Of a stretch of 64,000 nt of DNA, positions 1,189 to 58,400 are shown one piece after another. Every line of letters starts with the position of its first letter. Position 1 is the first letter of the stretch. The DNA comes from Deuterostichococcus epilithicus (taxonomy: Eukaryota; Chlorophyta; Trebouxiophyceae; Prasiolales; Stichococcaceae), in assembly GCA_033439295.1 (NCBI GenBank), contig JAVTLE010000004.1, positions 806,012 to 870,011 of the forward strand, read 5' to 3'. Made by a program: the position numbers and the translations under genes. The notes below the pieces were generated by a model. That model saw only the letters and a list, made by a program, of their open reading frames with translations. It made no database searches and was not told where the DNA came from.

Positions 1189-3958
1189 ATGCAGGCGCCT
1201 GTGCAAATCGACTTGAGCGCCCCAGATGCCGCCGTGCTCTGGCCAGCCTCGCCGATCGATCTGGACGCCCTCAGCGACTCAGAGCTCGCACTGCCCTCTA
1301 AGCGGCGACGTCGAAGTCGAGAACCTCAGGTCATCGAGGTGCGGATCAGTCACCCAAGTTTCTCGATGGTGGAGTGCAGCTACAGCAAGTTGGTCTTCAG
1401 GACGCAACACCCCGCGCAACTGAGTGTCCCGCTCGACTGTCCCAACGACCCAGTCTTGCCGGTTGCACAGCACGTCCACCTGTGCTTCAGCAGGTTCCAT
1501 CCTAGCCATGCCAGTGACAGCATTCCTGCCGCAGTACTGCAGACACTACTTACTGTCATGTTGCACGCGCAGCTCGGCTCGTCCCCGTCGTCCAGCGACG
1601 AAGATGATGTGCGCTTCATCGGCAACGGCGCAGCAGAGCGGAAAGCCGTCCAGGCGCGCAGGCTGCGGCAGCTGCATCACCCGCCCGGGGTGCGGCGGGA
1701 CCCCGCCCAGCGGCGGCGGCACGCACGCGGCGGGGCGGCCGCCGCCGCCGATACCATCTGCATCGACAGCGAAGACGACGGCGGTGCAGGGTCTGCCGCC
1801 GGCACGGCAGCCGGCGGCGGCACGGACGCCGCAGCCGCCGCGGACGCTGCAGCAGCAGCCGCCGCAGGCGGCGCAGCCCCGGCAGCAGAGGATGGCGACC
1901 CGTGCACCAGCAGCTGCGGCATCTGCCTGAATGACGAGCTGGCGAGGCGCAGCATGTACCGCCTGGACGGATGCCGCCACGAGTTTTGCCGCGCGTGCCT
2001 GCGGCAGCACGTCATGATGAGCGTCGACCAACAGAAGCAGCTGCCCAGGCGCGCATCTTACGTCATTTTCGTCGTTGTGCAGCCTCCGCACGTGCATCTC
2101 CCGCAGGTTGCTGAGACAAAACCCGAGCCAGCTGGGCGACTGGCAAAGGCCGTGGCGTGGTGGCTGGGAGCCGCTCCGGAGCGAGCAGTCAGCGCCTCAG
2201 CCTCACTGCACGATGCTGACCAGTGCCATGCCTGTGTGACAATTGCAATCGCTGCATGCGCCGGATTGCTGCACACCAACACATGCAGCTCATGACCGCC
2301 GCCCCATGCCGGCTCGCCACAGGCTGCACACCGCAGAACGAGCTGCGTTGAGGGTGTGAATTTGTGCAGACTGCCAGACGTGTCTCCAGGTGCCCGCGGC
2401 CGGAGGGCAGCCCGGGACGTCGAGAGCCGATGAGACATGCTACGCATCACGCGCATCCTGGCGACTGCAGGTGCCCGCAGCCAGAGTGCAACAAGGGCAT
2501 CGCAGCCGAGGCGGTGCGGTGGCTGCTCAGCGCCCGGGAGTGGGGCGCGGTGCTGGACGTGGCTGCCGAGGCGTGCCTGCCGGCCGACCAGAAGCTGTAC
2601 TGCCCCTACGCCGACTGTTCAGCGCTGATGGTGCTGCTGCGACTCGCTCCCCGTCAGCTCAATCATGAGCGTGCCTGCGCGGGATGGCAGCAGCTTCAAG
2701 GAAAGGCTTCTTTTACAGCTTTCGCATCGAGCAGTGCTTCCTCCTGGTGATGCTCAGCCTGGTGATGCTCAGCCTGGTGATGCTCAGGTGGCCGGCGACC
2801 AGTTTGGCATGGCCGGCGACACCGCGTGCCCGCACTGCAGGAACTGAGCGTTGGCAGTTCGACTCGCCTGAGCTGCCTCTGCACCGCTCTCTTTCCTCTC
2901 GGTGACCGGCGGCTCAGCAGAGTCGGCGACACCATGTGCCCGCACTGTCGGATTGCGCCAACTGAACCTCCCACGACACGCCTCAACATTTCCTCTACAA
3001 CGAGTTTGTTTCAGGGCCTCAAGGTGGCTCTGTCATGAAGCGACGAGCTGCTGCCCGATTCCGCGTGTTAAAGTGCTGAATCCCGGCCTGGCAGCGGCGC
3101 CGCAGCACTCTTGTGCGGGCAGGGTCGCCTCGGCAAGAAGTCCGCTGTGCTGCTCTGTCCAATGTCGCGAGCACTGAGTGCCGCCTCCTGTGTGGACAGC
3201 CGCGCAGCAGGCTGTGCGGGGAGCCCAGGAAGCAGCCGCATCCCAGCGCGTTGTGAGGTCTGCAGGGCTGCTACACGCCTTTGTCAGGTTTCAAGGAGTC
3301 CACCTGATGTCTGTCAATGTGACGCAGGAAGCTGTGCGGGGAGGGCGGCAAGCAGCCGCACCCGGGCGCCGACTGCGCAGCGGCGGCCGCCGGCGCACAC
3401 CTCGCCTCGGACGCCGGCGTGCTGAGCCTGGCGCAGAAGAAGAACTGGGGGCAGTGCCCCAGCTGCCGCTCGATGGTGGAGCGCCTCGCGGGCTGCAACT
3501 TCATGGTGAGCTGTCGAAAGAGCATCAACATGCGAAGCTGTACGGGGCCTCAGGGTATGGAGGGCATTCACGCAGAACAGGGTTGGTGCAGCATTGGCGC
3601 ATGCTGCCCTGTGCTTGGCGCCGCCTGCGCAGCCTCTCGCGTTGTGTGAGATCGAGCACGGTGCCGTCGCACCCTTGGTGATGCATGCACTTGCCTGTGC
3701 TGTCTCCGACAGGGGCGTGCTGGTGCATGAATGGCCCTGCTCGGGTGTTGAAGACGCATGGCTTTGGGCGACATGCTGCGCCCACTTCACATAACCAGGA
3801 AGTCATCTCCTTTGGCGCCCCGCCAGTCGTCCATCCACTCTCGTGTCCTGCACACGCAGACATGCGCGTGGCGGGGCTGCAACACGGCATTCTGCTATAA
3901 GTGCGGCAAGAAGGCGGGCAGCTCGTTCCAGCGAGACCACTACTCCTGCTGCAGCTGA
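1189..3958 (+). CDS. RBR (RING-IBR-RING2) E3 ubiquitin ligase
   Basis: Six exons: 1189-1329, 1573-2048, 2471-2630, 2788-2840, 3328-3505, 3860-3958 (368 residues); phases agree at every junction. The N-terminal 160 residues are low-complexity, with acidic patches (SSSDEDD, DSEDDGG) and a basic run. RING1 follows (CGIC...CRHEFCRAC, ending RCPQPEC). The IBR contains KLYCPYADCSALM, CPHC and KLCGEGG. RING2 contains CPSC and AGCNFM, whose Cys is the expected ubiquitin thioester residue, and ends with FCYKCG. RBR ligases take ubiquitin from an E2 onto this Cys before transfer to substrate. The intron after 2048 appears to start with GC and that after 2840 with GA; both are inferred from phase and the Zn-ligand pattern. 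The start is the first ATG of exon 1. The next gene is a paralogue in the same orientation. Substrate unknown. Confidence 0.85.
2743..2787 (+). repeat. Three 15-bp units at the exon 4 acceptor of the first RBR gene
   Basis: CCTGGTGATGCTCAG occurs three times without a gap (2743-2757, 2758-2772, 2773-2787), and exon 4 begins at 2788. Each unit ends in CAG, so there are three possible 3' splice sites. The unit is 15 bp with no stop in frame, so use of an upstream site would add one or two PGDAQ peptides. Confidence 0.9.
2916..2951 (+). repeat. Intronic echo of RBR exon 4
   Basis: This copies the end of exon 4 (about 2808-2844). Both contain GGCGACACC followed by GTGCCCGCACTG. The echo lies about 108 bp downstream, inside the intron. 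Confidence 0.75.
3205..3250 (+). repeat. Intronic echo of RBR exon 5 and its acceptor
   Basis: It resembles 3323-3370, the exon 5 acceptor and first codons. Shared blocks are GCTGTGCGGGGAG and AGCAGCCGCA. The offset is about 119 bp. Confidence 0.8.
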
Positions 3959-6588: not shown

Positions 6589-7051
6589 CCGCAATCTATG
6601 TGATCTGCAGACCTTCAGAGGCATTGCTTGCCCATGCGAATCTGAACTATCAACATCTGGCAGTAGCCACCAGCTTTGAGCACAGTTGTGCTTGCTTGTG
6701 AACCTTCAGTGCAACTCACCATGGTCGTTTGCATTGGCAGTAGATACTCAGCTGGACACCCAAGTTGCTGAGGGAAGGAGCATGCAATGAAGGCTCCGAC
6801 TGGGACATTCGTCAGGGATTGCAAGCTATGTTCAATGGTGACACAAAGTTCAATATGAATGTGCCACGCAGGGAGAGTGATGCCCTGCTTCGGTGCAGCG
6901 CTGGCAGCCCACAGGGCATATAGTCCTGAGCTGGAATTGTATTTCGAAAGAACCGCTGCATCAGCATTCCGAGCTGCACAACAAGACCCCTTCTGACTTC
7001 GAACCACTGCTTGCAAAGCACCGCAAGGACGTCAGTGCCGCTTGCAATACT
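6589..7051. other. Convergent intergenic region
   Basis: It lies between the 3' ends of the second RBR gene (+) and the BABAM2 homologue (-). I see no gene or repeat. Confidence 0.5.
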
Positions 7052-10000
7052 TCAAGACAGCAGGTCCGGCGGCGGAGGCAGCCTCGCCGGCGGCGCCGGC
7101 GGCGCCGATGGCACCGCCGCCTGCTGCCCCGCCGGTGCCGCCTGCTGCGCCGCCGGCAAGGGCTGCTGCTGCTGCTGTGGCGACGGCAGCCCGGAAATGG
7201 GCAGCGGCGCCGGCGGCTGGAGGTGCGCCTTCCACTGTGGCGCGGTCTCCTCCAGGTGCGCGAATATTCGCGCCGCGGCCTCCGCTGACGCCCACCGCGG
7301 CGACCACTTATAGTCCGTGTACCGGACGACGGGCCGCGACTCGTCCGCCCGGCCGCCGTCCGCCTGCAGGCGTTCCAAGCTGCGGGAATCAGACATGCGG
7401 GGCCGTGCGTCGAGGACCCGCATGCGCCTGTGCGATTTGCGTCGAGGAGCTGTCCCATGGCACGGACAGGTGACGTGCAACAATGTTTTAGACCTCTATG
7501 AAGAGCGGGACGGACTTGCAGTGTCAGCTAGCCGGTAGGTTCTCGGCATCACCGGTGCCGCTGGCTTGGGGGTGCATTCAGTACGGTTTCTCGATCTACT
7601 CATGACAGACGATCTTCTCATGACAGACATTCTGGAAGGGTCCTAGAAGAGTGCCGCAGACCTGCAGCGTGAGCTCCGGCAGCTTGTCCGGGTACTCGGC
7701 GCCTGCGGCCACGTGCAGCAGGCACACCAGGCCCTGCACTTCCACCCGCCACGACGCCCGCCTGCAGGGCAAGTGCACTGGTCACAATGCTTCCCGGCAC
7801 TTCCTGGTGTAAGATTGAAGGAGCGTCGGCGCTCTTAAGCAGACCAGGCCCTGCACCTTGCGTCTAACCGCCACGATGCCCGCTGGCAGGCGACACGCCC
7901 GCTGGTTGCCTCAGCGGAGGAGGGGAAGCTGCGGTGACAGTGTCGAGGCCCCGGCAACACAGGACCGACTGGTGGCCGGCTGAAGCGGGGTGGCCAAGCG
8001 GCTCTGATGCGTCCCCCGCATCAAGCAGGGAACCCAGCCCCAGCGACAGGCCAGGCCGGAAGGCGAGTCCACTCTGACGCCGCCGCGATTGCGACCAACA
8101 GAGTGGGCATTCAGCAGGAACACCCTAACCCCTAAAACCCTGAAACTCGACGCACCACCAGCCCCCCGAGTCGATGCGCAGCGGCGCGCCCGCCAGGTTG
8201 GCAATGGCATACAGTAGGCCAGCCCGGGCGGCGCGGGCCGCCGCCGCGCGGTCTACGGCCGCCTGCACCGCCTCCGCCGCCGCAGGAAGGAACTCCATGA
8301 GGCACATGCCGCCGGCCCAGCTTGGCAGCTGTGGCGTCCGCCCTGCACCAGTGTCACAGCAGCGCATCTCAAGAAACCCTACATGAGGCACATGCCGCTG
8401 GCCCAGTCCAGCAGAGGCGGCGCCCTGCGCGGTGTTGGAGTTAGGATGCAGGGTTTGATGCCCCCTGGGGGGGGGTTCCTGCGGCTTCTGGTGTCCCAGC
8501 TGGCTGTCTTATTTGAAAGCATACAAGCAGCCAGTCCTGCTGCATTCCGGCATGGCCCAGGTTGTGCACTGCAGCAGCCTGCCCGGTTGAGGCATCAACC
8601 GGAGCGAAGCGAAATTGCACACCCAGCAGCGCTGTCAGCTCCGGTGGCAGGTGCAGAGATGGCTGCGGGGTGGCGCCGCCGCCGCCGCCGCCTGCAATGG
8701 CTGCCCAGCTAGTGGCTGGCGCCGCGCCGCCCACTGTATACACCAGCTGCAACGACACAGGTGGCTCAAGCAAACCGCAGGCGCATCACCTCAAGTGTGG
8801 GGCGAATGTTAATGTCCGCAGGTCCCGGCGGCTTGAACATGTATCTTATCGTGCGAGCCACGAATATGATGCGCAGTGTCCGCATTGGCATCGTTTCCCA
8901 GCAGACAGCTGCGTCACGATATCGCTGTGCACAGCCCAGCCCTGTGCGGATGCGTTGGCCCGCTTATATCAGAGAACCAATATTCACCTTGAGCCGGACC
9001 TGCGCCGCCAGGGCTGCTGCGTGCGCTGCAGCCTCAGGCAGCAGTTGCGGCGCCGGCTCCGGGTGCCGTGCGCCACTCGCTGCCGGCTTGCTGGGCGACG
9101 CTGGCCGCTGGCTACTTGGCCCATCTGCATCGCTGGCAGACAGCTGCTGCTGCGGCTGGTGCAGCAGAGTAAACAGGGAGCCCAGCTGGACGCCCGGAAT
9201 GGGCAGCACGAACACCACCTGTCGACATAAATATCGCTTAAATACATCTCGTTCAGTCACCGAAATAATCCCAGCCAGCTAGACGATCTGAGGGGACGGG
9301 CCGGCACAGAGCATTCCGTGGAATGCTCCAATCGATGACACAGCATACGCTGCAGCCGCTGCTGCATGTACCACGGCAGACAGACGTGCAGACGCCCGCC
9401 AGAGGTGAGGTGGGCGGCATGTGTCGTGGCAAGGTCTGAGCTCTCAAGCTGCCCGGGCAGTGGACCTGCACTGGCAGAGGATGAGATCCACATCCTGATG
9501 GCGGCGGCTGCCGCAGCGCCCTGCAGAACGACCTGCTGCCCCTCCCTTCAAGCACCACTAGGAATTGATATGTCTGGCAGCACACCTTGATGGCGGCAGA
9601 GCCAGCAGTGCTCTGCAGCATGACCTGCCGCCCCTCCGCCGCCGTGGTGTCCAGCTCAAACTGCAGCGCGTCGTCCGTTGCGGCGACTGTGGCCACCCGA
9701 GCCGCATGGTGCGCCTGGTAGCTGCACCGCAGTTCAAGGAACACCTTGTGGTGTGGGTGCTGATTACAGCTTGGACTGCAGCGCGTCATCCGTCGCGGCG
9801 ACCAGCGCTACACGCGCCGCGAGGTGCGCCTTGCAGCTGCGCATGCAGCAACCGCACGGGAGCATGATGTTTGTCTGAGTTGGCACTAAAAGAAAGCTCG
9901 AGCCCAGGAAGCGGCGTCTGTCACGGGAACGTCAATACAGTCATCGCGAGATGTGCCTGATATCTGCGCAGCAGATGATGTCATGATGATGTGTAATGAT

Positions 10001-12343: not shown

Positions 12344-13450
12344 TTGAATATGGGGCTGGTGCATAGGGCTGCATGCCTGGCCTTTCTGGCTCTACTGGCT
12401 GGCTCAGCGGCGCTGGAGACAGCCGTGCCGCCCGAAGACCCCACGTTGGAGCCGGTGCAGCTGCCTGTGGCGCGCAGCATCTCCCAGGTGCCCCTGCACC
12501 AGGTGCCCCTGCACCTTGCCGCTGGCTGAATCTGCCTGCCGGCGGCATCTTGCGCCCACATCTCATGTCGATAAAAGCCTGGTTGCAGAAGCACCCCAGA
12601 CTGATTCATCTTGCCTCTTACAAGGCGCAGCTCAAAACCTTTGTTCTCTGTTGGCTTGTGGCCGCCATGCTTGCGACCATGCATATGCGCTGTCCACGTG
12701 CACGCCCCGCGCTGACATGGCACCGCACACCCATCCGCTGCAGAGCATCGCCGAGGGACTGTCGACACTGTGGCACGGCTCCAGCGCCAAGACCGGGCCG
12801 CTGTCGGACGCTTCTGCGCTGGCGGCGGCGGCCGCCGGCCTGGAGCATGTGCCGGTGGCGCCACCCCTGGTGAACTCACCAGCAGCGGGTGGCGGAAGCA
12901 CATCTGCCGGCCAGGCCACCGGCGCCGAGGCCAACTACCCGGCCAGGCTGCGGCAGCTGACGAGGTCGTCGTCGGAAAAGGCGCGGGCGGCGCTGGCCGA
13001 GGCGGAGGCCTGGGCGCGCGGCCCATGGCCGGCCAGCAGCGCCGCTGGGCGGTACCTGTGGCGCCGCTCCCGCGACGTCGCCGGCTGGTGGCAGACAGAG
13101 GTGGGCTCATTCGGACTTGTGTTGTCATGTTGGCCTCTGCCGCCGTCCGGGCGGCGACCTGTGGCGATGCCAGAAAGCCCTGCCCGGCTGCGCGATTGCC
13201 TGCTCCTCCACTGGCACAGGGAGACTTCTGCCGCCTCCTGCCCTGACCTCCTGCATTGCATTGAAATATATTTTCTAGCACCGGCCGCATCTGCTGCCGC
13301 AGGACATCGACCTGCTGCGGGACCCGTGGCGCTCCGCCGGCAAGGTGCTGCGCGCCAGCGGCCGGCAGACGCGCGCCGGGCTGCGCGAGTTCTGGGCAAC
13401 CGTCGGCCCGGGCGGCAAGCTGCACCCCACCGCTCTGTTCGAGAGCCAGG
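12344..13450 (+). CDS. Unrecognised exons with a signal-peptide-like start; may be the 5' end of LCB1
   Basis: Three exons join in phase: 12344-12487, about 12748-13099, and 13280-13450. The first encodes a hydrophobic start (AACLAFLALLAGSAALE) typical of a secretion signal or anchor. The second is Ala/Ser-rich, with RSSSEKARAALAEAEAWARG and GRYLWRRSRDVAGWW. The third reads LLPQDIDLLRDPWRSAGK and ends ALFESQ before a GT donor. That donor is phase 0, as is the acceptor of the LCB1 membrane exon at 14078, so these exons could be a long LCB1 N-terminus. An alternative is a start at ATG 12717, giving MAPHTHPLQS. It could also be a separate gene. A 15-bp duplication at the first donor (12487-12517) offers two in-frame donors. 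I do not recognise the protein. Confidence 0.5.
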
Positions 13451-13545
13451 TGCGCAGAGCAGCAGGGTCTGCAGAAGGGGCTGCAGCCTTGCGGGAGGCA
13501 CGCAGCCCGGAGCAGGTCGGACTCGCGCCTGCATTGTGTGCTGCG

Positions 13546-13587
13546 GCGAGCTGCTCCCCACTGTGTTGTTCAGCAGCCAGGTGGTTT
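13546..13587 (+). repeat. Echo of the exon ending at 13450
   Basis: It resembles the exon end and donor at about 13420-13455. AGCTGC(A/T)CCCCAC and a CAGCCAG/GT ending are shared, so the donor itself is duplicated. Confidence 0.65.
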
Positions 13588-13836
13588 GCCGCACCCCTCC
13601 GCGCGGGGTCCGGGAGCCAGGGTGGTCAAAAGGGTCTGATCATGGCCAAACACAAGGGAGGGAGCGCCTGCACTACGAGCGGCGGCACGAGACGCGACTC
13701 GCCACGATGTCTAGGAGCCTCCCTTGTGCGGCGAGAGGAAACAGCCGGGAGGAGACAGATGCGGCACGCTGCTGGGCCGAGGACGCATTGTCTCCTGCTG
13801 ACGCCGGTCCAACGCATGCTTCTCCAGAATCTGTTG

Positions 13837-14007
13837 TGTACAAGGCCACCTGGCGGTGGAAGCTGCGATGCTGGATTCATAGGTGGCGCCGCTGGCTCGC
13901 GCGTAGGTCGAAAGCCGACCGATTATCATATGTACTTGGGGCATTCCCGGAGCTGCCTGGCGGTGGAGGCCGTGGTGCTGGGGCTGCTGGTGGCGCTGCC
14001 AGCTCGG
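13837..14007 (+). repeat. Two upstream copies of the LCB1 membrane-helix exon
   Basis: The real exon (about 14068-14132) is preceded by copies at 13930-14007 and 13837-13899. All share TGGC(G/A)GTGGA(G/A)GC. The middle copy still reads SCLAVEAVVLGLLVALPA in frame. The first has a stop after HLAVEAAMLDS. Copies lie about 110-140 bp apart. Confidence 0.85.
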
Positions 14008-14077
14008 ATGTCGGGCCTTGAATCTGAGGGGCAACCTGTCCATCAGTGTCTCGAGTCGCATTTCAATGTGTACACAG

Positions 14078-17000
14078 GGCCATTTGGCAGTGGAGGCCGC
14101 GCTGCTGGTCCTCCTGGTGGCGCTGCTGGCACAGCGCAGCTACCGGCCCGGCGCGCCCACCCCTGAGCGCCTCACAGCACGGGTGAGGCCCCGGCAGTCA
14201 CCTTGTTCCCCGGCCACTTCGCACACTGCCCTGCGGCTTGCCCCCTGGGCGCATCAACGCACAGCACCTGCTCTGCCCGCCATACAGCGGCCTTAGGCCT
14301 TAGGGTTCACACCCGGCCACAGCAGCTCTGCCCGTGAACACCCACCGCCGCTCGTCGCACACCCTCTGATGCCACACGGCCGGTGCGCCACCCTTTGCTG
14401 CTGACCACTGGTGCCGTAACTGCCACAGTGGCGCCTGGGTGTCGCCGTGATGCTGCGCAGGCAATGAGCAAGCAATATCTCTTGCAAAACCAATACCAAA
14501 ATCAAAAACAAGATCCTGCAAGTTTTTGGCAATCTCTGGAATTTGGAGATTTTGCAACCCCAATTTTGCGAAACTTAACCGAAAGTGGAGATTGGAGACC
14601 ACACGCGGAAAGGGAAGGTGGAGGTCCCGCGCTGGGATTGACGCCCGCAGCCGCTCGCGGGCACGCTGCCGGTGGCTCGCATCTCATATCGAACTCATGC
14701 AAAAAGCATGTTGCCATGCCCCCAACGAACAGGAAGTCGAGGAGCTGTGCCAGGAGTGGCGCCCAGAGCCGCTGGCGGGCCCCGTGCCGGCGGCGCGGGC
14801 CCAGCTGAAGCCGGCGGTCATCACCAGCGAGGTCGGGCCGCACATCACCGCGGACGGGCGCCGAGTGCTCAACCTGGCCAGCACCGACTTCCTGGGCATC
14901 GCCGCCGACCCCGAGATCCGGGTGAGGAGCTCGGGGCCCCTGCTCTGGCGAGTTTTGGGGCACCAACCCGATGCGCCGGAGGTCGTCAGGCATGGTGTGA
15001 TACAGCTTAGCGCTGCACCACGTGCGTCGGGCCAGGGCTACGGGCTGGCGCCGCATGTCGGGTAATTCATGGACGCGTTTGCGTGGTCGCTAACGCTTGC
15101 AACGCATGGGGTCGCCTGTTGCAGGGCGTCTTGATGTCACTGCTCTTGCTAGCCGCGCAGGACATATGCCGCAAGACGATCCAGAAGTACGGGGTGGGCG
15201 CCTGCGGCCCTCGCGGCTTCTACGGCACCATCGACGTGCACCTGCAGCTGGAGGAGCGCCTCGCACGCTTCATGGGCACCCAGGCGCGCACACTCAGGGT
15301 TTGTGGGTTTAGGGTTTGGTAGGCACCATCGACATGCACCTGCAGCTGGAGGAGCGTCTCGCGCGCTTCATGGGCACCCAGGCGCATACCTTTGGAAGGT
15401 TTCAGGAAGGGGGTGGGTCGGACAGATATGAATGGACTCTCGCGCGCCTGAGCTGCCCCGGGCCGCGGCGCGTTTGCCGCACCACTGCAAGCGTCAGCGG
15501 TGTGTTCGGACCCATCTGCGTGCGGCGCACGTCGGTCCTGCCCCGCGGGCAGCGCACCGGGCTCCCTGAGGACCGCGTGAGGCGGCTGCGTGTTTCCCAT
15601 GTCCGGATCCAGATGGCGGTTTTCCGACCGCCGAAATGCTAGCGACATGTGCACGCTTCCGCGCCGCATGCATACGGTGATAACATAGCCTCGTGTGCCC
15701 GGCGACTGCGCCCAAAATGTGTCCTGTTCCTGCGCGCAGGAGGCGATCATGTACTCCTACGACCTGGCGACGGTGCCCTCCATCCTGCCCGCCTTTGCAA
15801 ACAAGCGCGACCTGATAGTCTGCGATGAGGTGGGGCGCACCTCCCGGCCCAAATACTCAAATTTCCGTCCCATGTGCTTTCTGGTGGAGTTTCAGGAGTG
15901 CCTTGCTGTTCAACCCGCTGCCGGGGCTGCGCTCCTGCCGCCAGTCCTTGGCACTGCGACGACGTCGTGCACTTGTAGTTGGCATGCAAGCTGCGACTCC
16001 CCTGCAGCGAGCTGCTTCAGCGAGCTGATGGGTCGCACAGCGCTGAAACGCCGACCGCCGACAGCGCCTGCATGGCTCCAGTTGAGTTCTGTTCCCGCAG
16101 GCGGCGTGCTTCCCGGTGCAGAGCGGAGTGGTGCTTTCGCGCGCCAAGGTGCTGTACTTCAAGCACAACGATGTCGCGGACCTGGAGCGCGTGCTGCGCA
16201 GCGTCGCCGCCGAGGACGCTCGGAAACAGTGCGCTGCGCTCTTCACTTCTCGCACTCAAGGACCAAGGAGATGATCATTCGCATACGAAACCCTGTGCAG
16301 AGCTCGTTGCAAAACCGACTGTGCTGCGATTCCCCGCAGGCGGCCGCTGAACCGACGGTTCATTGTGGTGGAGGGCATTTATGCCAACACGGGCGATGTG
16401 GCGCCGCTCGCCGCCATCGCGCGCCTCAAGCACAAGTGAGCCGGGGATCTTCACATATTAGCTAACGCGCGTGCTTAGGGCTTCAGGCTCCTCCCTGTGC
16501 ATTGGGGCAGCGTCCATCTACCAATGGGCGTCCCGACCGCTGCCAACCTGCCGTTGCCTCTTGTCTCAGGCAGGGTGTTGCTGCTTCTGCACTGCGTGTG
16601 CATGGCACGGCCGGGCGATCTGCTTCGAACACAGCCTCCGCTTGGTATCGATCGTTGCCGCGGGGGCTCGTGAAGTGAAGTGCAAGCCCAATCCAATCCA
16701 CGTGCGGCAGGCGGTGGACGAGCCAATGGCGCTGGGGGTACCGGCCTGAAACCCTTGAACCCTAAACTCCCATATAGAAGTAGGAAACACAGCATCGTTC
16801 ACCTTCCAGGTACAAGTACCGGCTGGCAGTGGATGAGTCGCTGGCGCTCGGTGTGCTGGGCGCCAACGGCCGCGGCGCCGCCGAGGCCGCCGGCCTGTCG
16901 CCCAGGGACGTCGACATCATCACCGCCAGCCTCAGTGCGCCTCCGTTGGGCGTGTCCTCGCTGTATGCATGCATGTCTGCACACACAACTTGCAGCATGC

Positions 17001-36175: not shown

Positions 36176-39100
36176 TCACGCCGGCACCAGGCTGCCGCCG
36201 GGCCGGTGGAAGCGGGCGAACATCGCGGCCGTCTCCGCAGATGGCGGTGCGCTGGGCACGACGAGGGCGAATGCCGCCTCGAAGTGGCGCGCCGCCACTT
36301 GCTCCGCTCCCAGATCCTCCTGTGCGGCAGGTGAAACTGTTGTGTGTCTGTTCAGCAGTGCACTGGGCGTGACGAGCGTGATGCTGCCTTAAGGCGGCCA
36401 CACAAGTAGCATTGTGAGCTTCCATGCATCCGGCGTGCACCGTTTCGGCTGCCGAACTCAGCAAACATGTGAGAGCAACCCCGCAGTGCGCGCGGAGCGC
36501 CTCAGAACGTGGGCAGATGGTGTGCCTTGCCAGCAGAATCCACTGTCAGTCGCAGTGACCAACAACGAGAAGGTATGGTTTTTGTGCACCTGCAGCGCTG
36601 CGAGTCCGGCCTCGCGGACGAGCGCGGCGCAGTCGGCGCCCGTGAAACGCTCCGCCCGCGCCGCCAGCGCCTGCGTGGCGATAGACTGGGGGTCAGGGTT
36701 TGCAGCGTGTCACAGAGTAGGGTTCGTGACAGCCGGCGCCTGTGAAGTGCTTTGTGCACGCCGCCAGCGCCTACAGCTACTGATGTGGAAATCAGGTTTT
36801 GTGGTGATCACACCAGCAGGGATTGCGGCAGTCATCTGCTTGAGAGGCGCTCCGAGCGTGCCGCAGGCGGCTGCAAGGGGGATGTCCAGCAGCAGGCCCC
36901 TTCCGCTTGGGCTTGCCCAGCGACACCGGACCAGTGCGAGACATCGCAGCTCCGCAGGGCGCTGCCGGGGATCGCTGCCTCCTGGCGAAGCTGCACACTG
37001 CCAGTTGAGCAGCTCCCTAAATGACTTCTTGCTTCCTTAGATTTCCTGCGTGCATGAAACGCTCACCGGCAGATCGACGTCGGGCGCCAGCGGCGTCGTG
37101 CGCGTGTGCACGGCCAGCACCGCGGCCCGCGCTGCGCAGTCGGGCGGCGGCACGTGCAGCAGCCGGTCGAAGCGGCCCGGGCGCAGCAGCGCAGGGTCCA
37201 CCCGGTCGGGGCGGTTCGTCGCCGCCAGCACCGTGACGCCCTTGCGCGCCTGTGTAATTTAGGGTTTCTAAGTCAATCATTGTAATGATCGTTTCTGGGT
37301 GCATCACTAGTTTTGAGCCTGCCTGCCACTCGCAGGCATGTGCTGCAACAGGACGGCAACGTCGAAAGACACCAGCAGAAAAAGCGCTGCAGACGTGCTG
37401 AGGACTGCTGTCGTCGGCGCGTCGCGACTCGAACACGCGCTCATGCCTCACAGGCTGCCCCTGCAAACCAGACGCCTCTGCCGCTGCTGTGCCTCCTTTC
37501 TGCAAGCGCATCGCGCGACTGTTAACGATTTGGAGCATGCACAGGAAACAGCACTGCCCACCGTGAGGCCGTCCATTTCGGACAGCAGCTGCGCCATGAC
37601 GCGGGTTTCCACGCCGGCGCCGGACTCGCCGCGCGGCGGCGCCAGGCCGTCGATCTCGTCGAAAAACACGATAGCTGGCGCCGCCCGCCGCGCCCTGCGC
37701 GGACCGAAGCGAGGATGACATGTGCACAGCACCGTAAGCACTATCAGTGCTGGATCAAGCACGGTGCTGCATCTCGGGAAACGCGAAAGTGAACCTAAAC
37801 ACCAAGACCATAGCAGGACGCCTGTTTGCCAGTGTCTCATAGGATCGGCGCTCTGCATGTGGGCTCAGTTTCTGCTCTATCGTATAGATTGGGTCACCAC
37901 GAGGATGCCGGTGTTTCAAGCCAGCTCTGTCGATTCAAAGGTATCCTCACAGCCCACAGAACTCCAGCCAATGTTGCAGAACACAGGACGCAAACACAGA
38001 AACCCAAACAGCAACCAGAGTCTGGTGCAGAGAGCTGAGCCAGCCCGAGCCAGATCTGGCAGCTACAACTGCTCGAAACTCGTGCATGGGGATGTTAAGG
38101 GCTCAGCATTTGTGTGTTGTCGCCATCCACTCGGTCAGGCCTTATGAGAAAATTTTGTGCATTCATTGCCCCGGGATGCTTCATGCAAATTGCCGCACAA
38201 ATGCAAAAAGCCAAACCAAGGCAACATGTGGATGGGCGCGCAGCAGCGCCGCACTGCCAATGCTGCTGCCGACTCGAAAGCGAGTCTTAGGCCAGCAGCC
38301 GCCAGCAAATGAGACGTCCATGTGATGATTTCTGCAGGAGGGAGAGTCGTGTGTGGACTCTGAATAGTGCGGCCGCACCTGGCAAACAGCGCGGCGACGG
38401 CCTTCTCGCTTTCCCCCACGAACTTGGAATACAGCTCCGGCCCCTTGACCGCCAGGAAGTTAAGGCCCGCCTCGCCGGCGACGGCGCGCCCGAGCAGCGT
38501 CTTGGAGCAGCCAGGGGGGCCGAACAGCAGCACGCCGCCCGGCGGCCGCGCGCCGAGACGCGCCAGAGCTTGGGGGTGCCGCTGCGGCCACTCCACTGCC
38601 TCCTTCGGCAGACATGGAGAGCACCGATGAGTGTAATTAAGGGGACCAGTAATCACAGATATCCGCTGCTCCTGTGCATGAGCGGCCGAACTGCGCGAGC
38701 GCTCCAGACGCCGCAGAAGGAACTTGAGAGGGCTACAATTTACAGGCTACTGCAGAGGCAGAGGCTGCAGGGTTGACAGGCAATTGCAGCAAGGCTCCGG
38801 CGTCGACGGCTGCCAACCAGTGTCATTAAGTAAAAGTGGAAAGGCATCCAGCCCCACAGATGACGCAAGATGCTCCTCTTGCGAGTCCGCTGACCGCTCG
38901 CCGCGTCTGGCTGCGTCACCTGCTCTTGTAGGTCCCCTGCCCCACAGCTGGCTTACTTGGACCCGTCAGCCGGTACTGTCATCGAAAGCCAGGGTCACAC
39001 GAGTGCCTGATGTTGATCGCACCTGCAGCCAGGGTCTGACATCTGCCAGGTGGCCGACGTCAACACAGCGGGCGGGCGATGTTTCCAGAGCAGAAGGGCA

Positions 39101-42100
39101 CACGAGGATCTCGTTAAACCCACCTGGAGGCGCTGTTTGACGTCCGCCAGGCCGCCGACATCGGCCCAGCGGGTGGCCGGCAGCTCCAGCGCCANCTCCC
39201 GCAGCCCGCTCGGCCGCACGCGGCCGCGCGCCGCCGCAAAGTCCGCCGCCGTCGCCGCCACGGGGGGAGCTGGGTCGCCGCCTCCGGCGGCGGCTGGGTT
39301 GCTGGCAGCGGCGACGGCGCTGGCGCTGCCGGCGGCGCCGCCGCCCGCCGGCGGCTGCCCAGCAGGCAGTGGATCGCCCGGCTGACAAGCCGGCGCCCCG
39401 GCCAGGCTGAGCCCNCCCAGGGACAGCGCCGCTGCTGCAACAGCGGCGGCAGGACCGCCTGCCGCGCTGTCGCTGCATGGCGCCTCCGCCTGAGCGTGCG
39501 GCTCCGGCGTCCGCGGCGGCTGCNGCTCGGTTGTTGCCAGCTGCGCCTGCTGCGGCGCTGGCGGAGCGTGGCCCGAGGCCTGCCGCGCGGCCACAACACG
39601 GCGCAGCGCCGTCATGGCCGCCTCGGAGACGAGGGCCGCCAGGTCCGCGGCGACAAAGGCATGCGCTGACGCCACCAGCTGTGAGATGTTGCTGTCTGAC
39701 AGCGTGTGCCGCACGCCCCGTAGGTGCGCCCTGGAACCAGGAGATGCAGTGACAAAACAATTAGCATTTGGTCGAACAAAGTATGAAACCCTGGAATGTT
39801 GCCATTCTGGGAACATCGTTGTTAGCAGTGAGAGTGTCGCACATCTGGGGGCTCAGTTTCTGCTCTATCGTATAGATTGGATCACCATGAGAATGCCGGT
39901 GTTTCAAGCCAGCTCTGTCGATTCAAAGGTATCCTCACAGCCCTCACAGAGGTGTGCATGACAATGCAATGCGATGTAACGCGCAGACCAGCAGCAGGAA
40001 AGCAGGAACACACATGCAACAAGCGCTGGGCTCAGCATATGGGTATGATTGTCGCCATCCACCCGGTTAGGCCTTATGAGAAAATTTATTTGCAATCATC
40101 GCCCATCAAGATGGAAACATGTCCTTCCAGCACACAATGAAACGCAGTGTCGGTCATGCCGCAAGCCGCCTGAGCATTGCAAGACTGACGCACCGCAGGA
40201 CGCTGGCTGCTGCCCCAGGGTGGGCATGCCCACTTCCCGGTTTGAGTTGAGTCTCTTGAAGTCTCTTTCTTACAAGCCACGATCGGATGTCGTGAGGCGG
40301 CGTAGCGAGGGGGTTCACCTGAGGATGGCGTCCCGCTGCCCCGGGGTGGGCACGCCGACTTCCAGCTCCCGGTCAAAGCGGCCCGGCCGCCGCAGGGCCG
40401 GGTCCAGTGCCTCTGGGCGGTTGGTGGCGGCCAGCACCACCACCCGGTCGCCGGCAGCGCCTGTCAGATCCCAAGCAAGTGATTGAGTGTTTGGTTCGTG
40501 AAACATCTGGGTAGATCTGGTGCCTCAGGCCGGCTTAGGCCGGCTTTGGCCGCCGGCGCCGCTGGCCGGCCACCCGCCACGCCTGCAAGGGCGCTGCACT
40601 GAAGTGATGATTGGTGGGGTTGCACGCAGGACCGAGTGCTGACATGACAAGCCTGATGACACTGGCGCATCGGTCATGGGCTCTCCAGGCTGGAGCCTGC
40701 ACACAGAGAGGCAGTCGCCAAAACCCTGCGGTCAAAACCCTGCACACCTGCGCCGCCGCCGTCCATTTCCGTGAGCAGCGTGGCCACCAGGCGCGCCGCC
40801 GCATCAGCCGCGGCGCCACCCGCTGCGCCAGCGCCGGCGCCGCTGGCCGCCGACTGCGCCCGCGCGGGCGCTGCCGCATCGGCCTCGTCGAGGAAGACCA
40901 CTGCCGGCGCTGCCGCACGCGCTGCGGCAAAGACGCCTGCGGACATGCGGCATGGCCTGTCAGCGGCGCTGGGTGTGGGACCAATGATTGAGGCAAGCGC
41001 CAATCTCTAGCTCGAGCACTGTGGTGACAAAAAGGCGCCAGTGAATTTACCCTTAGCTACAAGTTTGTTGCAGAAAACAGATGCTTGGTTAGTTTGGCCA
41101 CTCGATGACCTTCAACATCGTCTTGCTCAGGAGGGCGGCGGCGCAGGCGAAGCTCTCCAGCAAACAGGCCCGCGACCAAGGCCAGCCAGTCGGCGCTGGA
41201 CCATCTAAGCAGCCGGCGCACCTCTGAGGCCCGCCTCGCTGTCGCCGGCAAACTCAGAGACCACGTCCGAGCCGTTGAGCACGAAGAGCGCGGCGCCGGC
41301 GGCGCCGGCGGCAGCCCTGGCCAGCGCCGTCTTGCCGCAGCCGGGGGGGCCGTGCAGCAGCAGCCCGCGCGGCGGGCGGATGCCATACTTCACAAACAGC
41401 TCCGGCGACTGCAAGGGCAGGGTATGAAACTTTTATACCCGTTGGGCGACTGCACAGGCAGCAGGTGCAGACCCACCGGTTGAAGGCTTGATGCGGGGCG
41501 CTCGGGTGTACGGGCGCTTCAACTGCCGGTCTCAGCAAGCAGCGTTGCAGGTAAGCCCTCTGAAGCACGAAAGAGCGGGCGCATCTGCTGGCTGCAAAGC
41601 CCGCATCGACATGACAAGTACAGGCTGCTGCACATGTGGTGCGGCAGGAGCTGTGTGTCATTTCACGGATGCAGGTGGAACAGGGGGGGCGGCGATGGCA
41701 CCTGCAGCGGCAGCGCGACGGCCTCCCGCAGGATCTGCGCATAGGCCTCGACGCCGCCGAGCGACCCGAAGCCGCCCGAGGCCGCCGCCGCGCCGGAGCG
41801 GCCGCGCGGGATGCCGCGAGCGCCGCAGGGCCCTGGTCCCCACCTGCATGTTCGACAGGAGAATTTGCACTCTGTCTCGCAGGAGCCCAGGAGCCCAGCG
41901 GATGCATCGCGACAAGCTGCAGCGCGGCATGTGCCGGGATGAGGCGGCTGTGGCTGTGGACGCTGCGGCACAGCGCAGGGCTGCACTGTGAGGCAGGAGG
42001 AGCGCCCCAGTGGCCGCACGCTCTGACCTGAGCAGACATGTTCACAGCTGTGGGGTCATGCAGCTCGGGGAGACGCACCTCCCACGGCCGCCGCAGCCGC

Positions 42101-50887: not shown

Positions 50888-51294
50888 ATCTTGGAATTCT
50901 TGGATTTTAAATGCTTCTGAATTTGTATTCTTGTCAATAAGGAAATCGCGGATCAGCTTTCTCATCTCAACCGAATGCTGCTCAAGCCACCACTGTGTCC
51001 CAGCATGACCCATGCAGAGTGCCCCACCAAGTCTTAGCGAGGACGAATGCAAGATGTTGCGAACATAATTCAATCGGCTGCCACCGGCACAAAGCATGCA
51101 TGTTATACAAGTCCACAGATGAGACAGCCCTCAGCCATGAAGGCAGGTGGTGAGATTTGTTTGTCGTATCAACTCAACGTGAGTGGCATGTCGTGTGTGC
51201 GATGATGACCCAGACCATCACAGCGCCAGTACATGTTCAGATGTGCCTTGCACCCGTGCGGATCTGTCACATTGCTCAATTGAGAGCATCAAGC
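50888..51294. other. Convergent intergenic region
   Basis: AT-richer than its surroundings (50888-50960). No gene or repeat is seen. Confidence 0.4.
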
Positions 51295-52490: not shown

Positions 52491-55400
52491 ATGACCGGCA
52501 CCGCAGCTCCTGACGTGCTGTGGCCCGCGGGCGACCTTGCTCCATACAGCGGCGCTTTCCGCAGCAACGTGCGGGCGTTCTTGCGCGACCATGCAACGCC
52601 AGTGGCGCTGCCGGCCGGCTTGGCGCACACAGCAGCCTGGGTGATCGACCTGGCGGGCGCTGGTGGCGGCGCCCGCCTGCATGTGTACCGTGAGACGCAC
52701 GCCGACGACGCCGCCGCTGCCGTGTGCGACCAGTGCCGCATTATCGGTGCGTCTTCGCGCCGGCCGGCTGTTGCAGGGCAGTTTTGACACTTTTGTACAC
52801 TGCGAGCTCCTGCCTTGCATCTGACAACCTGTCCCTGCGTCCGCATGAGAGGTACATGGCATCGCCCACTGCATTCCGTCACCATGAGAACATGATGCAT
52901 TCTGTCGCCTGCGTCGCACCTGACGCCCTCCGAGTGGCCCCCTCGCAGGCTGGCAGAGCCACCCGGTGTGCACGATGCGCTACCACTTTGTGATCCCCGC
53001 TGGCGCTGGGCCACTGTCCGCCGCCGACCCGACGGCACTGCCCGGTATGGTGGAGGCCTGTCACGCCGCCGCCGCGGCCGCAGCTGCCCGCCAGGCTGCC
53101 TGCAGCAGCAACACCGACACCATGCCTGTCCAGGTAGACATGCCCGCCTGCAGCGGGCATGCTGCCAGCGGTGGCGACGGCGCCGCCGCCGCCGCCGCCG
53201 CCGCNGCTGCCAATGGGTTTGCGCCGGCAGATGCGGCGGCGGCGGCGGCGGAGGAGAGCCAGATACCAGTCGGCCTGGAAGTAGAGGCAGCTCCGCTGCA
53301 AATCGCGCTGCCGGCGGACGAGGCGCTGGAGTCGCCTGACCCGGTTTACGGTGGCTGCGGGTTTACTGCGCCGCCGTCGATCTACGACAGCCGTGCGCAC
53401 CTTCTGCACGGCGTGCTGCACCAGAACGGCTTCGGCCACCTGCTGCGCGTCAACGGTGAGCAGATCTTTGCCAACCATTGTCGCTCGCCCACTGCCCTGC
53501 CCTGATGCCTCGCGCGCATCGCTGCACGCTGCACTGAAGCCAATTGTGCTGCATTGCACTGGCTTCGCACCCCTGCTGCCCTGTCAACAGGTGCCGATAG
53601 CTGCCGCTATGCACATCAACCACGCTGTGTCGCAACCAAATGCCCAATAGGAATGCCAATTGGCAGCTGCACTATCAGCAAACCCTGAGGGCGGTGCCCT
53701 GTGTCGAGTCGCTGCAGGGCTGGAGGGCGGCTCGGCGCGCGTGTCGGGGCGGCAGCTGATGGACCTGTGGGACGCACTGTGTGCGGTGCTGGCAGCGCGC
53801 CAGGTCAGCGTGGAGGACGTCTCCAACAAGGTGGGCTCCTTAGAGTGAGGATGTCCACCAGGAAAAGGAAGATTGTTACTGTGTCAGGGGGACACGCTGT
53901 GCGCGGTGTGGGCAATGTGCCAGGTCAGTGCGGAGGAGGTGACCAGCAAGGTCGGCGCCTCTTATGAAATTCAGCGTAGGGGTGCAGCTCTTGCACCGGT
54001 TTTCAATCACATGAATCTGCGAGGTTGATGCAACATGAGGTCACATCCCGCGCACACGGCTTGGTCAGGTTCCCTGATCAGTGCGCATTGGCTCGGGTCA
54101 GTGTTCCTTGGTCAGTGTGCTACAACATGTTGTCCGAAGGGCGGCATGGAGCTGCGGGTGCTGTTCCCGGCGGCCTTCAAGGCCACCTGGTACGGCCGCT
54201 GGGGCTACGCCTTCGGCCGCGGCGGCTTCGGGATCAAGCCCGCCGCCTGGCGGCGCGCCGCGGCCGCGGTGCACGACGCCTCCCTGGCGGCGCGGCTACG
54301 GCAGGCGCCCGGCGGCGGCGGCGCGCCCGCCCGCATCGTCGCCCGCTACCAGGTGCATGCTGTGTTCTTTCAGGGTTTTCAGGCAAGCGTCCGGCTTGTT
54401 GTCTGTCTTGTCGATGGGCTGAGCTGCACGGTTTGCTGACAGGAGTGACCGCCGAACCAAGGGCACCCGGCGTGTTCGGCGGATGTGTAGTTGACTGGTC
54501 TTGCGACTGCAGGCGTGTTCGCTGATGCTTAGCTGAACAGTCCTGCAACTGCAGGACGGCGGTGAATCCAGATCCGGCCCACTGCACGGCACCCTGGCAA
54601 GTCCTGACAGGTCTTGGCGCAGAGTCGTGTGCCGCAGGGCGTTGGCAAGGCAGGCTGTACTGCTCCACCCTGGGCGACCTCCTGGGCCTCATGAACACAC
54701 CTGTGATGGATGGGTGCCGCTATCGCAGGGCGGTGGCAAGGCGGGCCGCGCGGGGCCGCCGCACGGCACCCTGGGCGACTTTCTGGCGCTCATGGTGCGG
54801 CTGCTGTCGCACCCAGAGGAGGCAGAGCAGCTGCTGCAGGACCGCCCCGACGCCGGCCAGGTGCGGTTCGTATTCAGGACGTGGGTCCGACGGCAAATCT
54901 CAGGGTTTGTGCAGAGATGACAGCCTGGACCACGTCTGCTGATGCAGCTGGCCTCTGGACCCTGATGACCAGCCTTCTTCTAAGAACCTGCACATGGAAT
55001 CAGACTGAGAATGCCTACACGAGGCTGCCTGTTGTCACACTGTGCATACCCTGGCTTGACCATACAACAGGAGCCCAGGGCGCATTCTAATTGCTAGCGC
55101 AGCTATTGTTCCAGGCAATGCCTCGAAGGGGATAAAGCACCGGCTGGACAATTGAGAACAGTTCGTCTTTGGATTGAGAGTGCCCTGCGCCCGCCTCTGA
55201 GCAAGACTGACAGGTGTCGCGTCGTGTGCTGCGCAGCAGGCGAGGCCTTCCTCGGCGAGCAGCGGCCGCCGCCGGTCGGCATTGCCTGGTGAGGAGGGCG
55301 GGGGTGCGTCGGTGTCTGAGGCCGCAGGCGGGGTGGCGGCTGGCAGCTGCGGTGCCGCCCTGGCGCCGCGGCCGCCGCAGCGGCCGCCCAAGCCGCCGCC

Positions 55401-58400
55401 GCCGGCAGTCAGCGAGGAGGCGCTGGCTGCGCTCAGAGCCATGCAGGTGGTTGCTTTGGGCCGGCCCCCTGTGGGAGAACCCACATCTTGCAGTCCCTGC
55501 TCAGGCTGCCGCATCAGGTTGCGGATTGGTCGGTCGCGGCAGAAACGGTTCAGCGGTTTGACGCGCCTTTCGCTGTGTTGCACTGATGGAGGATTGCTCT
55601 GCTGCGACATGCAGCCGGCCGGGGAGCTGTCCAGGCGACGGGAGGCGCTGAAGCCGCTGGCGAGTCTTGTGCTGCCCAAGCGCTGGGGGCGTGACGCCAT
55701 GCACGCCGGTGTGGAGGCTGTGCTCACAGCCCTGCAGGTGCGATTCATGGACCTTTGACTCTGTAACGCTGGTTGATGGTGCAACGGTGTGCCCGCTGCT
55801 TTGGCTGACGCCGCCGAGGAAGGGCAGGGGCGGCCTTGCAGGGGGGCGCGCCAATGTGCCTGGCAATGCGACATTGAGGCGCCCTTTGCTGGAAACCGCT
55901 CATTGCCCTCAGCTCGTCGAGCATCGCCTGTCGGCGCAGCTGCTGTGGCTGAGAGATTGCAGGACTGTGCCTTGGTACCTAGCGTGTCGAAAGCCCATTC
56001 ACCTGCTGCCAACCACTACTGCAGGAGTCCAGGGGCCGCTGGCTGTGCGTTGACGCCGCGCGGGCAGCGGCGCGGCGGCGGCTGCCCGGAGGCACCGACG
56101 GCGCCCTGCTGGAGTTCAGCCTGCGGGCAGTCGCCTTCCGCTCCTGGGCCGACGTCGCTGTCTTCTCGTGAGTGTCCCCTTGCTACCAAAGGCGCTCTGC
56201 CACTAGCACACTGGGCATTCTGGAAGTGAGGGGCATCGCGCACATGGGCCGACCTCGCCGTCTCCTCGCGAGTGCTGCTGCACCGTGTGTCCTGACAGCT
56301 GCTCGGGCCAGGGCCAATGTCGTCGCCGTCTTCTCGTGACTGTCGAGTGTATGTGTGTCTTTAACAGCCTTTTTCGCCTAGGCTGGCGACGCTGGCTCCT
56401 CCTTTACACGCTGATGAACCAGTCGTTCCACTGCTCAACACCTTTAGGAGGGTTTGAGGGGGTTTCATATCAAACCTGCTCAGAGCCTGCCTGCTGGCCA
56501 GGCTCCCTCGTGTTAGTGGCTGCCGGTGTTACAAACATGCTGCCACTTTGCCTTCTGGCAAGTTCACCGTGGCACGCCTGAGCGCTTGCGATTCAACATC
56601 CGCAGGGAGATCGACGAGGCCAGCAAGCAGCAGTTCCTGCTGCTTGACTACGCCGCCGAAGCTGGCGCGGCCGCCGCCGAGTCGGGTGCCGGCGCGGATG
56701 CGGCCGTGCGCCCCGATGGGCCACCGCCGCCGCTGCCGCCCGTCCCGCGCCTGGCCATAGAGCCCCGCCGCTCCAGCGCCGGCGGCGGCGCGCGGTGCTC
56801 CAGCGCACGCAAGCACAAGCCGTCGGACGCTGGCGGCNCCGNCNGCGCNANTGGCGNCGGCNGCGCCANCGGCACAGCGGCAGACGTGGCGCANCCGTCC
56901 GGCGGCGAAGCGCTCGGCGCTGCGGCGGGTGACGGGGCCGCTGCAGACGCCCGCGACAGCGGCGCGGCGGCGGCCCCAGCTTCCGCAGCGGCGGCTGAAG
57001 GACTGCCAGAGCCTAGTGCCGCGCCACAACCCACGGCAGGGGCGGCGCTGCAGGTTTCAGAGCAGGCGTGTGTCCCTGACCCACAGCTGGCGGCAGTCAA
57101 GGCGGAGCTGCTAGCGGGTCCCGAGCCAGGGCCAGCCAAGCAGGAAGCAGACGCAAAGCACACGGTCGAGGCGATGCAGGGGGTACAGATCATGGAGGCA
57201 GATGCCGGAGCTGTGCTCGGGCCTGCAACGCCGGCGTCGCCACCGCCGATGCCGCAGCGGCTCATGCGCAGCCACCGGGTGGGCAAGGCAGCAGCGGATG
57301 CCAGCACTGTGGCGGCGGAGACATCGCACGGCGTAGCAGCCAACACTGCGGTGACGTGCAGCCCGGGGGCGGCGGACGGCAGTGGCAGCCTTCGGTGCAA
57401 GCCGCCGCTGCCGTCGCCGGCGGGCGCGACCCACGCAGTCAGCAAGGCACGGCAGCCGCTGCGCTCGGGGTCCGGGTCGCGCAGTCCGCGCCGCTCCGGC
57501 AAGAAGGGCAAGGCACTTGCAAGCCGCGTGGCCGGCGCGGCACCGGCAGACAGCCGGCCAAGCGGCGTGCGACTCGGTGGTGGAGGCAGCCACGCTGAAA
57601 ATTCAGCACCTGCCGGCGCTGGTGGAGCGCGCATGTCAGCGCCGCCGCCGCTGGCGGTGCCGCCGCCAAAGCGCATGCGCGCCGCAGCAAAGGCCGCGGA
57701 CGCCGCCAACCATGCACTGCTGACCGGTGCAACCCAGTACTTCCCCCAAGTCCCCGTAGGCATCAAGGACCGTGCACCGCCTGGTGGTGTCCGGAATGGT
57801 CCTAGCTCAATCTGCCCAGCCCACACCGGCTTGGTGTAACACGCATGCTGCCGTGCCAATTTGTCTTCGAATGTGCAGGTGCAAGGCCGCGTTGCCGCTG
57901 CTGTTGAATGCTTCTCGTCGTTGCGCTCCAGGCCAGCGTGGCAGCAGCAAGTCGGCGGCAGCCGGCAGGCAAGACTCGATCGCCTGGGGCCGCCGCGGCA
58001 GCCGCAGCATGCGCCGTGGGTCCCTGCCGGGGTACGGCCCTGGCCTGTGCCTGTGGCTAGCTTTCATGCGGTGCAGCTGCGCAGCATGTAAGGCTGCAGC
58101 TCGGTGGCATGTCATTGCCCGGTACTGCACAACTCGTAAATCCAGGCGCACGTTGGGGTTATATTGGAAGCGTCATGCTCAGTGGCCAGGAACGACGCGC
58201 ACGCTGCATAGCTCCGCAAACATGTGTTTGTTGGTCTTTGCACACCGACGCGATCCAAGCTTCCATCTTGATGTGAACGCGGCCTGCCATCGCAGCTCCC
58301 CGGCAAGGCGGCTCATGGCAAACGGCGTAGCCTCATCATCACAGCAGGGGCAGCCATGCAGCGATGGCGGTGACAAGTGCGCAGAACAGCGGGCGCATGC

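Follow-up and report, generated by a model that had tools for sequence, protein, structure and literature searches.

The window analysed here is a stretch of 64,000 nucleotides from the green alga Deuterostichococcus epilithicus (positions 806012-870011 of contig C4, JAVTLE010000004.1, in a genome of 46.8 Mb and 21 contigs), in which several predicted genes, among them genes for LCB1 (serine palmitoyltransferase), a BRE-like protein and an AAA ATPase, carry decayed copies of their own exon edges within their introns. We refer to such a copy of an exon edge inside the adjoining intron as an echo, donor-type if it copies the end of an exon and acceptor-type if it copies the start. Exons were called with a purpose-written, self-trained gene finder (249 kb, later 289 kb), which converged on CAG/GTGCGC-like donors, TGCAG/G-like acceptors and a median intron of about 200 bp; calls were checked against orthologues for LCB1 and for parts of BRE. 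The pairs in the window, with the evidence for each, are as follows.

3203..3249, + strand: plain tandem-type echo of exon start 3323-3369, similarity continuing into the intron (window scan, pair table)
3323..3369, + strand: exon start, source of echo 3203-3249 (window scan, pair table)
8293..8320, - strand: exon part of the BRE-like gene near the acceptor, source (window scan; P0001 alignment 8343-8134)
8379..8406, - strand: acceptor-type echo of 8293-8320 in the upstream intron of the BRE-like gene (shuffle test, window scan)
9489..9545, - strand: donor-type echo in an intron of the BRE-like gene (window scan, pair table)
9581..9637, - strand: BRE-like exon end, source of echo 9489-9545 (window scan; P0001 aligns down to 9601)
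9652..9725, - strand: BRE-like exon start, source (P0001 alignment)
9767..9840, - strand: acceptor-type echo at 115 bp from its source 9652-9725 (window scan, pair table; the gene finder called the echo an exon too)
13412..13452, + strand: LCB1 exon end (donor side), source (orthologue P0004 alignment to 13449; window scan)
13543..13583, + strand: donor-type echo of 13412-13452, 131 bp downstream in intron 13450-14077 (window scan, pair table)
13958..13999, + strand: acceptor-type echo in intron 13450-14077, 127 bp upstream of its source at the start of exon 14078-14182 (window scan, pair table; P0004 aligns to the downstream copy, weakly, E 0.26)
14085..14126, + strand: LCB1 exon start, source of echo 13958-13999 (window scan, P0004 alignment)
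14635..14679, + strand: acceptor-type echo lying 118 bp upstream of its source in exon 14733-14921 (window scan, pair table, protein alignment)
14753..14797, + strand: LCB1 exon start, source of echo 14635-14679 (window scan, protein alignment)
15224..15287, + strand: LCB1 coding exon end, source of echo 15322-15385 (shuffle test, window scan, protein alignment)
15322..15385, + strand: echo of 15224-15287 with 95% identity across 64 bp (intron flanks unlike, intron-half z 0.4)
36630..36672, - strand: exon start of the AAA ATPase gene, source (shuffle test, window scan)
36730..36772, - strand: acceptor-type echo of 36630-36672 (shuffle test, window scan)
39012..39078, - strand: donor-type echo of 39113-39179 (shuffle test, window scan)
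39113..39179, - strand: exon end, source of echo 39012-39078 (shuffle test, window scan)
40209..40237, - strand: donor-type echo of 40335-40363 (window scan, pair table)
40335..40363, - strand: exon end, source of echo 40209-40237 (window scan, pair table)
53769..53840, + strand: exon end and donor, source (shuffle test, window scan)
53889..53960, + strand: donor-type echo of 53769-53840, 120 bp downstream (shuffle test, window scan; intron-half z -0.7)
54633..54693, + strand: acceptor-type echo of exon start 54724-54794 (window scan, pair table)
54724..54794, + strand: exon start, source of echo 54633-54693 (window scan, pair table)
56139..56174, + strand: exon end and donor, source of two echoes (window scan, array analysis)
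56239..56274, + strand: first donor-type echo of 56139-56174 (window scan, array analysis)
56308..56344, + strand: second donor-type echo of 56139-56174, spacers unrelated (pair table, array analysis)

Exon borders in LCB1 agree with the orthologous protein, and its introns 13450-14077, 14183-14732 and 15284-15739 contain four echoes; the proteins closest to this LCB1 are environmental or transcriptome sequences (77%, 69% and 67% identity), followed by those of Myrmecia, Coccomyxa, Elliptochloris and Chlorella at 55-59%, which marks the source as trebouxiophyte-like. A 117-bp piece of the 15224/15322 locus finds only itself and its echo in the genome, and 15313-15381 matches P0004 residues 316-338, which the real exon 15158-15283 already covers. 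Both copies of this exon end (15283 and 15381) are followed by GC, not GT, and the spacer between them (15287-15322) holds the telomere-like word TTTAGGG, present five times in the window counting both strands. Telomere-like filler was rejected as the source of the spacers, TTTAGGG occurring in 1 of 26, and an Rfam scan of the window gave no match.

The copies themselves are confirmed. For the six clearest pairs named in an initial annotation of the window, local alignment scores of 113, 62, 54, 39, 37 and 52 compare with null maxima of 29, 28, 34, 29, 24 and 36 from 500 first-order shuffles each, all six beating every shuffle. An annotation-free scan for ungapped direct repeats (offsets 25-524, score at least 38) returned 23 pairs in the window, against 0, 0, 0, 0 and 0 in five far-offset bands of equal width, together with 2 inverted pairs and 1 mirror pair; the comparison with shuffled and control sequence that the annotation had set as a check thus left far fewer pairs in the controls. 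To this we added eight 20-kb stretches, seven on other contigs and one elsewhere on the window's contig, and four 10-kb hold-outs, bringing the sequence sampled to about 0.6% of the genome (sampled loci outside the window carry handles such as L009L010). The stretches gave 9, 6, 4, 2, 17, 1, 23 and 4 pairs of at least 38 at offsets below 525, the counts of 17 and 23 being swollen by coding repeats, with far-offset controls of 0 in six, 1 in L021L022 and 14 in L019L020, where tandem copies of a gene lie about 5.3 kb apart. The hold-outs gave 7 pairs of at least 36, about four of them intron-exon by our own labels, against 0 at far offsets, and the claim that the pattern recurs across the genome is supported by the excess in stretches sampled elsewhere.

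Range and placement can be given more closely. Offsets of 525-1524 bp hold no excess in six of the eight stretches (L021L022 keeps 7 and 2 pairs, L017L018 1), and 55 of the 100 pairs of at least 38 found in the window and stretches at offsets below 1525 fall at 75-174 bp. The short range proposed at the outset stands, whereas its limits of 75-140 bp do not, the actual span being 75-175 bp; same orientation, a position at exon edges and the usual inclusion of the splice signal are all borne out by the pair scans. The figure of at least 18 introns or flanks agrees with 18 distinct exon-intron pairs in the window, some of them ambiguous (for example 35986/36161 and 40551/40832), and that of seven genes is slightly high, the extended table giving six predicted genes there. 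In-frame coding repeats, which are separate from echoes, add to the raw count: L017L018 10177-10580 and L021L022 (-) 8542-9975 are long coding repeat arrays with many offsets in multiples of 3. The gene duplicate in L019L020 pairs 6267-10000 with sequence about 5.3 kb downstream, in blocks 71-97% identical whose offsets shift from block to block. A large predicted gene at 20222-27961 of the window, with about 22 introns, contains at scores of at least 36 only the coding repeat 20455/20497 and the intron-intron pair 27215/27336.

Copies were then counted against exon calls in the 470 introns of 100-1500 bp among 511 with flanking exons of at least 45 bp, at a score of at least 36. Of 470 edges of each kind, 10 on the donor side and 23 on the acceptor side had a copy in their own intron, acceptor-type copies being the commoner, compared with 0 of 1880 and 1 of 1880, respectively, in size-matched foreign introns; the reverse complement of the own intron held none at this score (0/470 donor, 0/470 acceptor). 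Shuffles, far-offset bands and foreign introns together rule out chance or base composition as the source of the pairs. The 32 echo-bearing introns have a median length of 448 bp, compared with 236 bp in the other 479 (Mann-Whitney p 1.1e-11), in keeping with the proposal that copies go with added intron length, although longer introns also give copies more room. By rising length class, echoes occur in 0/76 (40-149 bp, of which those below 100 bp were not scanned), 2/197, 5/127, 12/65 and 13/42 introns, or in 25 of 107 introns of at least 350 bp and 7 of 400 shorter ones (again unscanned below 100 bp). Echoes also seem to be unevenly spread between genes.

What is copied mostly ends at the splice signal. 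Similarity extends over about 25-90 bp of exon together with the splice motif; its limits were examined in a pair table of 93 rows, 55 of them exon-intron and several to an array, from which both a boundary profile and an intron-half test were drawn, neither with a spacer filter. In the profile (36 cases, each with an edge splice site and identity of at least 0.70), identity on the echo diagonal ranges from 0.59 to 0.78 over the 30 exon bases nearest the edge; within the intron it falls from 0.71-0.72 over bases 1-5 to 0.40-0.45 over bases 6-10 and to about 0.3 farther in. In 28 of 36 cases similarity stops no more than 12 bp into the intron (13/13 donor and 15/23 acceptor, with five acceptor cases extending 48-56 bp into the intron), whereas plain tandems decayed neutrally in simulation and detected in the same way end there in 1-8% overall and in 1-19% in the matched identity range.

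The intron-half test compares the 36 bp of intron flank beside each copy and is independent of where alignments end; it was applied to 41 pairs, after removal of rows with an offset above 280, no splice site, an exon part below 22 bp or too short a flank. In 32 pairs z was below 2 and in 6 it was at least 3, and z stayed below 2 in 15 of the 20 pairs with exon-part identity of at least 0.80 and in 8 of the 11 with at least 0.85, the other three reaching 4.9-10.6. Simulated plain tandems score below 2 in 0-1% of cases at identity 0.95, 2-14% at 0.87, 19-52% at 0.80 and 41-79% at 0.74; because the test has little power below an identity of about 0.8, the 11 pairs of at least 0.85 separate the two populations best. 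Two pairs that are 95-97% identical (window 15283 and L011L012 9796) lack intron-half similarity and a third, at 97% (L019L020), has it. The pairs thus appear to fall into two groups: plain tandems, which are the minority, and a majority whose copying took in just the exon edge and splice motif. Since in most pairs the intronic part of the would-be unit shows no duplication, plain tandem duplication followed by decay does not fit them, and the description as degenerate tandem copies is not supported for this majority. Some other analyses (25 pairs: offset and length statistics, mismatch clustering, spacer sources) set a minimum spacer length of 15 or 25 bp; because such a filter selects against plain tandems, our argument rests on the boundary profile, the decay simulation and the intron-half test.

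To the plain tandem class belong L009L010 (-) 357-608, an array of a 104-bp unit (exon end, donor and part of the intron, about 84% identical), and L019L020 (-) 2290-2461, an 85-bp tandem across an acceptor that at 97% identity is among the youngest exon-intron duplications seen. In the window, 50370-50519 is a plain tandem duplication that includes intron sequence, as at 3203/3323, and 107-421 is an intergenic full-length tandem duplication whose 157-bp unit shows about 81% identity across 155 bp.

Four exon edges have at least two successive echoes (L009L010 6761-7145, L017L018 19392-19566, L021L022 12477-12713 and window 56138-56301; the farthest L009L010 copy is doubtful, with z -0.6 to 2.0). 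In these arrays, hand-picked for having several echoes, echo-echo comparisons, one per array, gave z 6.8, 7.6, 5.7 and 4.4, and ten spacer comparisons gave z -1.3 to 1.6. Because echoes are alike and spacers are not, and neither should be constrained, copying probably never included the spacers. A genome-wide search, of a kind that skips very common words, with the 86-bp spacer from L011L012:9767 (a pair of 95% identity) found no match other than the spacer itself. When 25 spacers were compared with the 600 bp flanking them on each side, resemblance was slight (mean z -0.01 to 0.40), and the sequence shared among 26 spacers amounts to a single 12-bp match. Offsets in the 25 spacer-filtered pairs are 90-174 bp (mean 119.5, sd 23). 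A correlation of -0.59 between length and spacer was rejected as a sign of a regulated unit, being the part-whole value that arises when offset and length are unrelated. Among intron 5-mers TGCAG is the fifth commonest and CAGGT ranks 245; given that abundance, microhomology could help to place acceptor-type copies, an account that does not cover the donor side.

Once made, the copies decay without codon constraint. Mismatches by codon position number 197/1039, 218/1033 and 252/1039 (0.190, 0.211 and 0.243, all exon-intron pairs, plain tandems included), the slight excess at position 3 being what silent changes in the real exon predict, and they are not clustered (z 0.07, n=25). This lack of clustering, together with silent changes, read by eye, by which the real exon in L017L018 differs from its two echoes, speaks against gene conversion as a means of maintaining echoes. 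Exon-part identity in the 41 pairs is at least 0.95 in three (one a plain tandem), 0.90-0.94 in none and 0.68-0.88 in 38. Because only three reach 0.95, most copies are old, and the picture of an ongoing process is not supported by these identities.

The explanation we favour, tentatively and at somewhat short of an even chance, is short-range templated insertion of exon edges into adjoining introns, accompanied by a minority of ordinary tandem duplications across splice junctions; it leaves the template's end at the splice signal unaccounted for. On this account an exon-edge piece of about 25-90 bp with its splice motif would be copied in the same direction into the adjoining intron, mostly 75-175 bp away, by templated synthesis, with the neighbouring exon edge as template for mending a break or stalled fork in the intron, in the manner of repair-mediated proximal DNA capture; the copy would then decay without constraint, and introns would grow in part by this unusual route. 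A transcription-linked template or break (an R-loop, or pre-mRNA with splicing factors at the splice site) might set the template end, which we offer as a weak guess that is distinctly unlikely to be right, and we consider it rather unlikely that a splicing- or transcription-coupled process repeatedly pastes exon edges, cut at the splice signal, into the adjoining intron. Several points weigh against templated insertion. Offset does not follow copy length (r 0.06, n=25, where 0.52 is expected if spacer and copy length are independent), a tandem-like geometry that suits random-spacer insertion less well and is the main result that the favoured explanation does not explain. Inverted copies are absent, though reported for vertebrate repair-mediated duplication; two reverse-complement spacer scores of 50 exceed their 100 shuffles; the six pairs with z of at least 3 are plain tandems, if a clear minority; L026 2473-2749 looks intermediate between the classes; and the L028 4519 copy begins 11 bp inside the exon. 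The splice-motif boundary is also the point beyond which the real copy is no longer under purifying selection, a hint of some age or constraint effect possibly missed by the simulation. Several rows in the boundary and intron-half samples stem from one and the same array, and the exon calls lean on our own gene finder, with LCB1 and parts of BRE as the extent of the orthologue check.

One alternative takes the pairs as ordinary tandem duplications of about 100-120 bp straddling the splice junction, with the exon half kept recognisable by one constrained copy and the intron half decaying in both. Direct orientation, short offsets unrelated to alignment length, roughly regular spacing in arrays, the six pairs with intron-half similarity and the full-length tandems in introns and intergenic DNA (10 of 93 table rows, most with spacers of about 0 or below) all suit it, and PMC4974935 documents such a duplication across an intron-exon boundary in potato RdRp. 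Simulated tandems nevertheless end near the splice site far too seldom, the two pairs at 95-97% identity without intron-half similarity are hard to place in it, and in the arrays echoes resemble one another while their spacers are unrelated, although neither should be under constraint; we regard it as a serious but unlikely alternative. Were the echoes functional decoy, poison or alternative exons under selection, one could understand why splice motifs are kept about as well as exon sequence and why arrays persist; the nearly even mismatches across codon positions, however, lack the reading-frame conservation expected of an alternative exon, the printed edges, judged by eye, do not consistently carry a second splice site at their far end, and in L017L018 two differences common to both echoes are, by eye, silent changes in the real exon, as expected of unconstrained copies. 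We consider selection on the copies improbable. Staggered double-strand breaks filled with filler DNA (P-U-F-U-Q) would leave direct repeats around unique spacers, and Daphnia-type intron gain is attributed to such fill-in (PMC3443670). Offset should then rise with copy length (r about 0.52) and does not, which weakens this explanation, and the splice-site boundary is left unexplained; we hold it to be very improbable.

The intron gain by tandem duplication of an AGGT-containing exon segment that the initial annotation had invoked has in its favour that some copies hold CAG/GT (as at 53769/53889) and that in a first pass three pairs had offsets equal to the predicted intron length (139, 93 and 101 bp at L011L012 7427, L023L024 17508 and window 39012). 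Each resulted from the prediction of a zero-length exon within a longer intron and was removed when exons below 45 bp were merged before the test, after which 0 of 499 introns matched with a score of at least 28 on the diagonal at intron length +-3 (0 of 3493 diagonals, against 2 of 3411 in a shifted control). The echoes sit inside longer introns, and AGGT gain is ruled out as a general cause, leaving the hypothesis highly improbable; the three first-pass cases are possible exceptions or recursive splice sites. The gene finder reads the AG/GT-containing echoes at window 39022, L011L012 7427 and L023L024 17508 as zero-length exons. Mobile introns (introners) inserted with long target duplications would likewise give a spacer between direct repeats and splice motifs at the boundary, but 26 spacers yielded no sequence family and the one spacer searched through the 46.8 Mb found only itself, so we give this origin almost no credence.

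Intron lengthening and the origin of new splice sites have largely been inferred from rare single cases. Here 32 of 470 introns, and 25 of the 107 of at least 350 bp, carry a recognisable copy of neighbouring sequence, so that a single genome allows birth, boundaries and decay to be measured. If the splice-signal boundary holds up, it would point to a DNA-level mutation process tied to splicing, and we know of no mechanism that predicts one. Should splicing- or transcription-coupled copying prove true, it would be one of the main origins of this lineage's long introns and would keep a record of past splice-site positions.

Tandemly duplicated exons place exon copies with splice sites beside the original; the copies described here are mostly partial and not coding-constrained. 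Among the top-listed open-access papers we recognised nothing as this pattern from titles and abstract openings, which is not proof of absence. With AGGT intron gain, as reviewed in PMC3443670, the echoes share direct coding repeats around splice motifs, yet here the offset differs from the intron length, the copies lie inside longer introns and no gained intron is demonstrated. The potato RdRp duplication (PMC4974935) likewise spans an exon edge together with the splice signals, but there the intronic segment is duplicated too and here mostly not. Introners (PMC9860276) likewise affect introns genome-wide, whereas here no common element sequence was found. The nearest description for the majority is the repair-mediated proximal duplication of PMC2671141, which describes short local copies, some with filler, and counts exons and intron splice sites among the duplicates. 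Its closeness and unrelated filler or flanks recur here, its occurrence in either orientation does not (0/470 and 0/470): there, an exon copied into an intron of the same gene is inverted and the mean distance is 1.2 kb (in part a product of the method, according to the authors), whereas our copies are direct only, about 100 bp away, mostly bounded by splice motifs and present in 32 of 470 introns.

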